Assembly (NCBI RefSeq): GCF_029962835.1 | Contig: NC_080573.1 | Location: 32,915,001 to 32,979,000 of the forward strand | Origin: Magnolia sinica | Lineage: Eukaryota > Streptophyta > Magnoliopsida > Magnoliales > Magnoliaceae | Reading direction: 5' to 3' | Length of the DNA: 64,000 nucleotides | Shown here: positions 7,691 through 19,002 of the stretch, piece by piece | Position numbering within the stretch: position 1 is the first letter of the stretch | Layout: each line of letters starts with the position of its first letter | The notes under the pieces: generated by a model | What the model saw: the letters and a program-made list of their open reading frames with translations, nothing else | What the model was told of the DNA's origin: nothing | Databases searched by the model: none | Position numbers and translations under genes: made by a program

Positions 7691-9624
7691 AAAACTGAAC
7701 TCAATGGCCCTAGGGCTATGGTATACTTAGGTTATAACCAAATAGTGGTCGTTTCGGTCCAATGGAGTGCATCTGGAGGCCCATTTTCTGCGTACGGTCT
7801 ATGAAAAGTTCCCCGACAATGGATCTACGCCAGGTTAAGTTTTCGGTCCGATTGGATTTACAAATCGACCGCGGAGGATCAGTTTCAATTCAACGGTCAT
7901 CGACACTCGATCAGGGCCACAAGTACATTGACCTGTGTTAAAAATTTTCCCTGATCCAAGGGTTTAGTTGGGTCAGAATCTGACGGTCTGAAACCTTAGA
8001 TTTGGCCTGCAAGTAAACGACTCAATTCACTTAAGTTTCAGTTTGTTTTCTAAAGGTATTCACGTTTCGCACACACTTCGTTCCGGGCTCAAGTTGTCTG
8101 TTTCGAGATACCATTAGGACTTGATTTTCGAGAAGGTCGTTGTCACGCCCCAGACTCGGTAACTAGACTCACAAGGAACCCAATGGCCGGTTCTGTCCAC
8201 AACAGCCTCCGTAGTACCCCATTCTCGGCTCTTGAAGAAGGTTCCGATCCTGGGATCCTACAAGGAGGATTTTCATAATAGTATAATCATTTTTTAATAT
8301 GAGCATACCCAAGATCACAGTAAGTATATCTGAGAATAACAAATGGCATTCATCACAAAATTCACTAAGAATTTGAACTTTTACAAGTTTACATCAGGTT
8401 CAAAAGAACGTACATAAGGTAATAAGGAAAGAGAAAGAAATCAGCAAACTGGAGTCCTCACTGCTCAACTCTACTCCACGCTCTGCTGCTAAGACGCCCG
8501 CCTAGAGTCTCCTGCAAGCATCAATCGTGCATAAGCTTATAGAAGCTTAGAGGGCAGTGTAAGTGTGTGTCAATGGTGCATAGAAGAATAGTAGGAGATC
8601 CAAGAAGGGAAACATGCTCAATGAGGATATCACCAGCCTTACCAAGGCTTATCATGAATATGATACAATAAGTATTGGATGTCATACCAAGGCAATGCAT
8701 GAAGGGGCTTACACAGCCAATGCTAATGTGATGCAAGTAATGTCAGTGCTCATATCCAAACCATATATCAAGTACATTTCCAATCATAAGAAAATCACCG
8801 GGGTCCATTACATTGCCGAATGACTGTCGCTCTACAGACTCCACACAGTCAAACAAGCGTAAGAGACCTCACTACTCACCTGTGGACAACCAATCACCAA
8901 TAAGGCCTGAAGGTAGCGGACCCATTTACGAGCTGGTCAGACTCAGCCTAGCAATGCCTCCTCACACCAGGCAGATAAGGCTACACCCCTATCCAACCGA
9001 TTACACAACAGTGAGAGTCGCGGCTTAACGGTATAAGGCCCTCGTGCGCTCATAGTTTCCACTCGGTCACCGCGTTGGAGCAGATCCTTGGTACCATGGA
9101 AGTTTTAAGAATTTCACCCATGAGCATCCTATGCACCCGGTATGCTTAAGTAATATTTTCGGTGTCCACACATGCAGTCATCCACAAATGTCCCTGTGGA
9201 GGCAAGGCCCTAATGAAGCAAGGGCGGTATCATCATGAAATACGATGCCAATACATGAGTCGCATACACAGATCATGCATAAGTTTCAGGCACTCAATGT
9301 ACATAAGGGGAGAAACTCCATTCCTCAATGACCACCATACAATGCAATCAATTCATACAGATGATGCATATGGGTCGCAACGATGTAAGTGTGCTACCTG
9401 TGGAATATGGAATCCTCCGTCCCAAGGAGGATTAAGATCTAGGCACATAGACAAGTATTCTAAGAAGAAGAGAAGTCCTCTAGTAGGAGCCCAGTACTTT
9501 GGAATGGTCCACAAACTATGAGAGTCAAAATCCTAAGGAGGAACGGTCCTAGCCAGGCCCAAGGTGGGCTTCAACCACCTATAAGGGCCTCTATGGGCCT
9601 ACCTTCACTACCAAAAAAATGACC

Positions 9625-10172
9625 AAAGGCTACGGACTATTCGGGTTCTTAGCTACGGCTATAAACCGTAGCTAGTTTGCTACGGCTTAAAACTGTAGCT
9701 AATACTGTCTAAACCGTAGCTAAAGGCCAACTCTGCCATACCTACATACAACCTTGGATACCCCATAAGGGACTCTACAAGGCCCATTAAAATGTGTATT
9801 CTCCATCTAATACGTCTATCCATTTTTTAAGAGTATTTTAGGGCAAGAACCCAAAAAAGGAAGTAGATCGAAAGCTCAAGTGGACTACATGGTAGGAAAG
9901 AGTGGAGATTAATCCATTGATCGATGGTGTGGTTCAATTAGACCTTCGATTTGCTTAGATGTTAGGTTCACTCCCTATAAAAAAATTACAAAATTAATGG
10001 ACGGAGTGGATATGTTGATTGCATCAAGATGGACCCCACAAAGCCCATGACAAGGCCGTCCGTCCAGATCCCGTGAAATGTGAATGATGGAGTGGCTAGT
10101 ACGGATTGTACAATGGCTACGGTCATATGGGCTTTTAGCTACGGTTAAAAACCGTAGTAGAACCGTAGCAGG
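9625..10172. repeat. Left subterminal repeats of the CACTA element
   Basis: Inverted GCTACGG...CCGTAGC words occur at 9628-9725 and again at 10117-10172 (tagctacggttaaaaaccgtagtag). They match the motif dominating the right subterminal region and differ from the rest of the element. Confidence 0.85.
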
Positions 10173-10303
10173 CGAAAATGTAAAAAACTGCGCTGCCTTT
10201 TTCTTTTCCCCCTCTCACTTCCCTCCACTCAACCCTATTCCCTTTTCCCCCTCTCACGAAATGCACATTTCCCTCCACTCAACCCTATTCCCTCTCACGT
10301 CCG

Positions 10304-10307
<4 letters not shown>

Positions 10308-10347
<40 letters not shown>
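10308..10347. repeat. (CT)n microsatellite
   Basis: A pure CT run of about 40 bp within a longer pyrimidine-rich tract (10190-10450). The open frame across it (10084-10569) is a by-product of the simple sequence. Confidence 0.95.
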
Positions 10348-10351
<4 letters not shown>

Positions 10352-10479
10352 CCTTGCCGCTCTTCTCTATCTCTCTCAATCTCAATCTCACGCCCGTCAA
10401 AACCCCTTTCTCATTCCCTCGCTCTCCCCCTCCCTTTCTCATTCCCTCGCTCTCCGGGTTTGCATGTGATGATTTCAAT

Positions 10480-17356: not shown

Positions 17357-17734
17357 GTTTGTTGTTCCTACAATTAGGCTGCCCATATATCTTCCTAACT
17401 ATAAGTCACATGTCATATATTTGAGCCATGCTCATACTATAGGATCTTGGAAGCTCTACAACTAGGAATAACAAAATCGCTAACTCTTAGATTAATTTGA
17501 GTTACTTGTATCCCACATATATCAACCATCACATCTTGCAAAAGTTGTTATGCCTGAAAGCTACCTCTGCAGAAATACTTTACTAGTAAATATATCCCTT
17601 GAGTTTGTGGATGATGTGATTATGACAATATATCTCATGATTTACAATATAAGCCTATATTTTCCTCATAAAATGAGCTTATGGTCCAATTTGCTTATAA
17701 TTGATTGTTCCTCAATACAAGTCTTTGATTACAG

Positions 17735-17803
17735 GATGCTCTTGGTGGAAATTCAAAAACAACATTTATTGCAAATGCCAGCCCATCTATTTGGTGTGAA
17801 CCT
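17735..17803 (+). pseudogene. Captured kinesin motor-domain fragment
   Basis: After the acceptor tgattacag (ending 17734) the frame reads DALGGNSKTTFIANASPS. This matches the L11/switch II-adjacent motif of kinesins (pattern LLQDSLGGNSKTTIIANISPS), closest in my reading to plant kinesin-12. The sequence then diverges (IWCEPIFLE) and hits a stop at about 17811. It is a short captured exon without motor function. Confidence 0.7.
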
Positions 17804-18315
17804 ATTTTCCTAGAGTTCTCTAATTTACTTTTTTATTTGTTTCATATTTAGAATTATATTTGTTTTGTATTGTGAATCACAAAGATAATTGTTTCCGTGC
17901 TTGGTTCCAGCACAAACCAGTCCATTCATCCAGTCTGGTCCAGGTTTTACATCTAGTCAGCTTTTAAGGTTCTTTGGGTTATGCCTTGTTCTGTGTTAGT
18001 TTTTCATGATGTGGCATGGTGGTTTCCCACTTTCCCTCTTCTTCCAAGAAATGGAAATGGTGTATTTTAGTTTTGTTGTTCATTTGTTCTGTTTTGTTGT
18101 CTTATGTGTAATATGTTTTTCATGATGTACTCCACTATAAATTATAGCTAATGCCAAGTTCTTCTTCTTTGCAGATGCTTTCAGACAACCGAACAAGCTA
18201 TAGTTGTTCATCAGCCAAGCAAAAGTCATACCCAAATCTTGCGTTGTGACTTTGTATTATTTGTGGAACTTAATGTTGTGTAACAGTTTGATTAAGTTTG
18301 TTTTGAAAACTTTAA

Positions 18316-18490
18316 CTAAACTGTTGTAATTGTAATTGATTGAATGAAGAATTGTAATTGATTCATTATTGAATGAATGATTGTAATTGAATGAATGAAG
18401 GATTGTAATTGATTCATTATTGAATGAATGATTGTAATCGAATGAATAAATGATTATGCAGGTGGTAATTGAATGAATGATTATAATTAA
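18316..18490. repeat. tgaatgaatgattgtaatt minisatellite
   Basis: Variants of ttgaatgaatgattgtaatt recur through this stretch inside the CACTA element, just before the right subterminal repeats. The repeats keep an open minus-strand frame only because the sequence is simple. Confidence 0.85.
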
Positions 18491-18505
18491 ATATTTTCTT
18501 AACAA

Positions 18506-18985
18506 TGAGCATTAGCTACGGCTATTAACCGTAGCCCTTTGTTGAAAACCGTAGCTCTTGCTGAATTCGGCTTTTTGCTACGGTTCTCATCTACTTTTAG
18601 CTACAGATAAAATCCGTAACTGTAAGTAGTTTTAAACTATGGACAATATTGCTACGGATCTAATCCGTACCTATAGTTTCATTAGCTATGGCTATTAACC
18701 GTAGCCTTGTATCTGAAAACCGTAGCTGTTGCTAATTTCAGCCTATTGCTATGGTTCTTGTTCAACTTTTAGCTACAGATATAATCCATAGTTGTAAATA
18801 CTTTAGTGCTACAGAAGCAACGGCTACGGATTTAATCCGTATCCACTATATCTATGGCTACGGATTTAATCCGTAGCCATAGCTTTTCGACCTATGGCTA
18901 CAGCACCAGTGGCTACGGTCGTGCTACGGATTTTAACCGTAGCCATAGACTTTTAGCTACGGTTTTTATCCGTAGCCTTTGCCCT
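18506..18985. repeat. Right subterminal repeats of the CACTA element
   Basis: More than ten GCTACGG / CCGTAGC-type words, many as inverted pairs separated by 4-8 bases (for example gctacggctattaaccgtagc at about 18514), fill the last 490 bp. This array is denser than the left one. Confidence 0.9.
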
Positions 18986-19002
18986 GTTTTCTGGTAGTGC
19001 TT

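Follow-up and report, generated by a model that had tools for sequence, protein, structure and literature searches.

Ends, subterminal repeats and class of the element

The DNA under study is a 64-kb stretch of the genome of Magnolia sinica, a rare tree (C1:32915001-32979000, here called the window, in whose coordinates positions are given), and it contains at 9606-18999 a complete non-autonomous CACTA element of 9,394 bp with fragments of five host genes inside. The left terminal inverted repeat (9606..9636, + strand) starts with CACTACCA and the right one (18969..18999, - strand) ends with the inverse of CACTACCA at 18999; both repeats start with CACTA, and they are identical at 26 of the 31 positions compared. 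The sequence immediately outside reads ctt on the left (9603..9605) as well as on the right (19000..19002), which is the 3-bp target-site duplication that the CACTA (En/Spm) superfamily requires. Short subterminal repeat arrays in both orientations, another criterion for this superfamily, are found at both ends. The motif GCTACGG or its complement CCGTAGC has 23 exact occurrences in the window against 1.42 expected, a count reached by none of 100 shuffles, and all 23 are inside the element, with eight in 9629-10169 and 15 in 18515-18976, that is, in the first 564 or the last 485 element bases. None of the 23 lies between 10170 and 18514, a count of exact matches that did not extend to degenerate remnants.

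No transposase was recognised in 29 stretches of the element compared with Pfam, ten of them antisense and together not covering every frame. The initial annotation, made from the letters alone, had described a CACTA element with these same ends, ctt duplication and terminal motif arrays and with no recognisable transposase, and the present results agree with it on each of these points. The same Pfam comparison gave sub-threshold chance matches (ACR10_N 0.19, FAM209 0.07, IL33 0.09), and searches for RNA families and plasmids returned no match.

The outer parts of the element can be divided further. A 5' module common to the family (9606..10394, +), delimited by motif count and genome search, comprises the eight left-hand motifs and a CT-rich tract; its initial 600-850 bp recur at many places in the 1.84-Gb assembly at 81-89% identity (40 scored of 2914 first-look candidates). 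It is followed by a further module (10394..11329, +), the limits of which come from two places matching this stretch alone at 88-89%. At the other end, the subterminal array (18515..18976) holds the 15 right-hand motifs and a 172-bp unit present about twice. Upstream of it, an exon-like stretch behind an AG acceptor (18175..18300, +) recurs in 18 of the 20 sisters that were fetched, at 10 kb each, and is a candidate for a native last exon.

Gene fragments and their source-like loci

The five captured fragments, in the order NAC, enolase, Clp/Hsp100 ATPase, P4-ATPase and kinesin, are all on the + strand, and for each of them a source-like locus was identified in the same genome, on C2, C18, C3, C13 and C14, respectively. 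The best match per fragment scored 104-1600 bits, whereas 200 dinucleotide shuffles per locus gave at most 38.3 bits, so that all five exceed every shuffle. Intron sequence aligns to the source-like locus in five out of five cases, which indicates capture as genomic DNA. Splice sites have been kept as well: an acceptor and a donor in NAC, acceptors and donors in enolase (one of them a GC donor), an acceptor in Clp, an acceptor in kinesin together with a donor seen by eye, and a donor in P4 recognised by comparison with the source. The five host fragments, their common strand in this copy and their flanking splice sites had all been proposed from the sequence and were recovered here. Database searches support the names of enolase, Clp, P4-ATPase and kinesin; "NAC" was named from a protein motif alone.

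The NAC segment (11516..12734, +) is colinear with C2:19394550-19395850, intron included, at 86% in a gapped alignment of 1289 columns and at 95% in the exon region; on the left it is bounded by the edge of the fetched source, and on the right the match runs out at 12734. The exon proper (12290..12664, +) has both acceptor and donor and contains two stops in the window copy, while the corresponding C2 exon is open. Pfam and PDB searches with the element piece and with the source exon gave no named match, the PDB search with the element piece returning ten unrelated matches at E >=1.1. A protein search with the source exon recovered 24 relatives among 43 candidates, none of the 24 carrying a Pfam domain. 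The best match is Magnolia sinica LOC131234545, a protein of 130 residues listed for a contig equal in length to C19, in which the NAC-exon stop described below is absent and no upstream element exon is visible.

The enolase fragment consists of an intron piece (14095..14142, +) and three exons on the + strand, at 14183..14269, ending ...WCKQK, at 14307..14387 and at 14471..14545. The latter two were recognised by Pfam as enolase (6e-11 and 2e-8), nothing was obtained for the frame with the first exon, and the three exons joined together matched enolase in PDB at 5e-28. The C18 gene is open across the 1.3 kb fetched, and identity to it, introns included, is 96% for the piece 14095-14142 and 97% for each of the pieces 14162-14294 and 14289-14615; the unusual GC donor following 14307..14387 is common to the element and this gene. 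The element skips 262 bp of the source between the first and second of these pieces and 464 bp between the second and third, and the second gap, which removes two exons, is sealed at the microhomology TTTATT (14289..14294, +). Upstream of the fragment is a short stretch resembling an exon, SPDVYKAACNLLK (14038..14076, +), with AG before it and GT after it. Another protein, Magnolia sinica LOC131220625 isoform X2 (on a contig equal in length to C12), has two enolase exons behind an N-terminus of unrelated sequence and is possibly another enolase capture; it was not assigned to this family because its N-terminus matched none of the displayed element or sister copies.

The remaining three fragments all fall in 16023-18999. 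The Clp piece (16785..16854, +), with a splice acceptor and an exon from 16808, is 92.9% identical over 70 bp to a C3 exon, EAAMIRLDMSEYMERHTVSK..., located in C3:839700-840000; this source exon matches AAA_2 (2e-26) and ClpB (9e-33) in profile searches, and the element piece itself gave 0.14 against PDB. The P4-ATPase piece (17298..17490, +), with exon 17298-17356 ahead of a splice donor and a 4-bp TTGG overlap at its left border, shows 89.1% identity over 193 bp to the C13 locus. The element piece found nothing in Pfam and nothing in PDB, and the source exon found in Pfam a HAD-type hydrolase and a chance-level model alone (best 8e-5). The name comes from an NCBIfam phospholipid-translocating ATPase match at 3e-20 (71.5 bits, where the cut-off for the whole protein is 431) and is supported by more P4 exons 0.9 kb downstream of the source-like exon. 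The kinesin piece (17687..17869, +), an exon from 17735 with intron flanks, is 90.2% identical over 183 bp to the C14 locus; it scored 0.016 in Pfam, which is sub-threshold, and 0.0017 in PDB, and the source exons scored 6e-5 and 5e-4 in Pfam, under the cut-off.

Matches to the last two gene families are also dispersed in the genome. About 20 kinesin motor pieces (profile positions about 241-296) have the same pattern of one TGA and one TAA, mostly with an 80-residue open frame, and seem to belong to another repeat family carrying a kinesin fragment. Numerous short matches fall within positions 1-35 of PhoLip_ATPase_C, a TAG being common in them, and perhaps mark another repeat with a P4-ATPase piece. 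A phytoene-synthase-like exon piece, WCRRTDELVDG (16411..16445, +), was named from its motif; the PDB search was negative and it is not counted among the five.

Sister copies, mode of capture and spliced products

The last 200 bp of the element were present at all 40 scored places (2069 candidates) at 92-100% identity. The initial annotation had proposed a search of the same genome for parent genes and for sister elements with shared termini; such sisters exist, and for the genes source-like loci were found. The 5' 1.9 kb of the composite occurs at 14 places, the window included, at 93-100%; the stretch 12290-14560 is complete at eight places and interrupted by an internal gap at three others, and, with three stretch searches combined, all five fragment-bearing stretches occur together at at least ten places. 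With ten places holding all five stretches, the composite has moved as a unit after capture. Amongst the 20 sisters, most of it is present in seven (L031-L037), including L033 with a large internal deletion and L037 with part of the Clp exon deleted. L038 resembles the tail of another composite cut by a gag-RT-integrase element. Seven sisters for which both ends are listed measure 6,460-11,848 bp (an interrupted C15 copy excluded), as compared to 9,394 bp in the window. Six copies were compared on both flanks, and the 3-bp duplications match in five of these (the window copy, L033, L044, L048 and L050), L048 and L050 being counted as one insertion because 1.9 kb of flank is common to both.

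The sisters also differ in what they carry. Up to 2447 bp of additional sequence at 15240 contains pieces of ribosomal S3A (2e-25) and ELMO (6e-9), with a sub-threshold match to ArfGap (0.02). At the junction 16019..16022, L039, L043 and L049 have 3.4-3.5 kb extra, which in L039 (3.4 kb) includes Myb (3e-11) and a sub-threshold glutamine amidotransferase match (3e-4), and DUF3223 (6e-20) is located to the left of this junction in L039. L041/L045 gave a sub-threshold LANC-like match (0.006). Since sisters retain fragments that are absent from the window copy, the number of captured fragments is at least five. An RRM reading frame is antisense in L045 (oriented 4782-5306, -; RRM_1 6e-14), a frame also present, unscanned, in L046; it lies inside the element because the L045/L046 sequence is common to the exact end and the right flanks differ. 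The proposal of capture in one orientation therefore holds for the window copy and fails as a rule for the family.

These copies also bear on whether CACTA ends could have been inserted by chance around a host chimeric gene or pseudogene cluster. The retained splice sites and the single strand of the pieces would fit such a cluster; however, it is contradicted by the copies, with the five stretches found together at ten places between the same ends and sisters holding other gene sets between those ends, and we consider it extremely improbable.

With regard to the order of events, three sisters were read along their whole length, namely L044, L048 and L050. Each contains either 16368-18999 or about 16023-18999, and in none of them do the NAC or enolase stretches find a match reaching 150 bp. 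The stretch 16023-18999 is likewise present in L039-L043 and L049, with NAC and enolase absent in the 10 kb read, which did not reach their left ends. Identity to the source-like loci is 89-90% for P4 and kinesin and 95-97% for NAC and enolase, with Clp at 93% (70 bp only) in between. Given these divergence levels and the occurrence of the right-hand pieces in elements without NAC and enolase, the right-hand pieces were probably captured first. Columns that differ from the source in all eight copies compared number 18 of 535 in the NAC region and 10 of 327 and 4 of 133 in enolase, and identity between these copies is 97.0-98.5% for NAC and 98.2-100% for the larger enolase piece. Capture was probably stepwise, and the serial capture suggested earlier is supported by the two levels of divergence and by complete sisters with different contents. 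Comparison with sisters revealed, in addition, a 22-bp filler copied from adjoining sequence (15240..15261, +) and a 4-bp filler, GCTC, at a junction and also found next door (16019..16022, +). The window copy appears to be a deleted derivative that lost 2.4 kb, the gap having been closed by the 22-bp neighbour copy. Fillers of this kind typically accompany the repair of breaks in plants.

The protein search with the NAC source exon also detected Magnolia sinica LOC131233444 isoform X2, a product of 101 residues from a contig equal in length to C18; on C18, a composite copy was located by search at 53.66 Mb. Residues 1-19 match a putative upstream exon of the element (10910..10966, +; 16/19 identical, E 5e-6) that is followed by GT, and residues 20-101 match the NAC exon. 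In the window, the corresponding join 10966^12290 has GT at 10967 and AG just before 12290. A sister copy very probably underlies this deposited spliced gene model, and the 'isoform' label suggests transcript data behind it. Because the model fits 10910-10966 plus the NAC exon, the earlier idea that the element could give a chimeric spliced transcript gains support at the level of annotation, that is, from a protein model rather than from reads. The same match would suit a functional chimeric gene under selection carried by the element, its exons being joined in the model at splice sites. However, the TGA at which the model ends is found in the NAC exon of all eight copies compared, frameshifts are present in L032, L034 and L037, the window copy alone has an additional TAG, and the enolase piece is without two exons; we regard such a gene as very improbable, and a working protein from the window copy is not likely.

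The best explanation, in which we have high confidence, is a CACTA transposon, itself non-autonomous, that gathers exons of host genes. Captures would have occurred in successive steps, each piece having been inserted as a filler copy while an internal break of the element was being repaired, and subsequent losses would have been sealed by microhomology or by fillers taken from adjacent sequence. The element ends would be acted on in trans by the transposase of autonomous CACTA elements; as these ends are intact, transposase from other CACTA elements could move the element. The captured exons would be spliceable into short chimeric transcripts. An alternative route is the tandem model, already put forward for Pack-TYPE elements, Pack-CACTA included (PMC8903248), in which two insertions around a gene piece are mobilised as one unit and the inner ends are later lost through deletion or mutation. 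It predicts common ends and differing interiors among family members, as seen here. Five small pieces with source-like loci on five chromosomes would, however, require repeated rounds of fusion, and no exact terminal motif lies in the interior of the element; this last argument is weak because the model permits loss of the inner ends. We therefore view fusion of neighbouring insertions as possible though unlikely, and prefer capture as break-repair filler.

Several observations weigh against this preferred explanation. Capture is deduced from comparison and not directly observed, and fillers were found at deletions rather than at capture borders, except for the TTGG overlap at the P4 border. 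Any of the source-like loci may be a paralogue of the gene actually captured; for the P4 and kinesin stretches there are better-matching places, assumed to be element copies and unread; and the kinesin matches 0.7 kb upstream of the C14 locus, on the same strand, have stops inside, reflecting introns or decay. The identity of the NAC piece is presumed from its protein motif, the profile searches having given no named match. The flanks of L031 do not match (atg/aga), and L031 is possibly a hybrid or the result of aberrant transposition. As regards an autonomous partner, 1669 genome candidates for Transposase_21 were found and all 150 scored were above the cut-off, yet none of the 150 was inside a listed copy when compared by eye.

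Two further observations concern sister flanks: L031 and L033, on different chromosomes, have the last 125 bp of the left flank in common (96%), and a Transposase_21 match (C6:88549274-88549903) lies 34 bp beyond the right end of the L046 copy.

Extending the preferred explanation to the family, we tentatively suggest, without much confidence, an exon collector. Host pieces would be copied into one transcription unit between native first and last exons, sense pieces would tend to persist, and the composites would be transcribed and spliced across sources to give small proteins such as LOC131233444 isoform X2.

Elsewhere in the window, DEAD-box RNA helicase exons (27163-27804 and 30423-30974) and a Gly/Ser-rich stretch (36347-36943), noted by eye, perhaps constitute one gene with long introns across 27163-37000. 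A nested tandem repeat array with units of about 66, 100 and 263 bp occupies 37129-38150, and retrotransposon polyprotein fragments were seen by eye at 792-1304 and 62612-63106.

Relation to known capture systems

In those parts of the cited reports that are considered here, the closest likeness is to Tgm-Express1, the 5.7-kb soybean CACTA element of the wp allele, which has CACTA ends around fragments of five unrelated host genes, introns as well as exons (PMC1947982). Its captured exons are spliced into chimeric transcripts started at the promoter of the interrupted host gene (PMC1947982); exon splicing may be a likeness too, as suggested for the Magnolia element by a deposited protein model. 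The Magnolia element differs in its size of 9.4 kb, in the genes involved, in the at least ten places with all five fragments and in having sisters with more fragments. The Tpn1 family of Japanese morning glory similarly combines conserved ends, 3-bp duplications and subterminal repeats with captured host interiors, and both a chimeric transcript and a putative autonomous partner are known for it (PMC5105172), whereas no partner was found among the 150 scored Transposase_21 places in Magnolia.

Multiple CACTA-mediated captures, some by exon shuffling, have likewise been described on wheat chromosome 3B, where some captures are transcribed and under purifying selection (PMC4290129), in contrast to the decayed NAC exon of Magnolia. 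Pack-TYPE and Pack-CACTA elements of rice and maize are also non-autonomous, move gene pieces and show stepwise gain on comparison of family members (PMC8903248); the examples given there are, however, short, with one or two pieces, and the early inner ends of the fusion model were not seen in the Magnolia element. A 2026 review notes the possibility of a further capture route that is yet to be identified (PMC13317346). Within the genus, a CACTA transposase domain of Magnolia ashei is named in PMC8978399, and a survey of the Liriodendron and Magnolia CACTA literature at the level of titles found no report of this family.

The family presented here offers captures of greater and lesser divergence, fragment sets that overlap, and one composite in at least ten copies. 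For every named piece this genome contains a matching source-like gene, and gains and losses are legible from the sisters, which helps to settle the mechanism of capture. It also poses a practical problem, as an apparent element copy is deposited as a host protein in the Magnolia sinica annotation. Gene capture by DNA transposons is a known phenomenon, as the soybean, morning glory, wheat, rice and maize elements illustrate, and the Magnolia composite is a clear new case of it.

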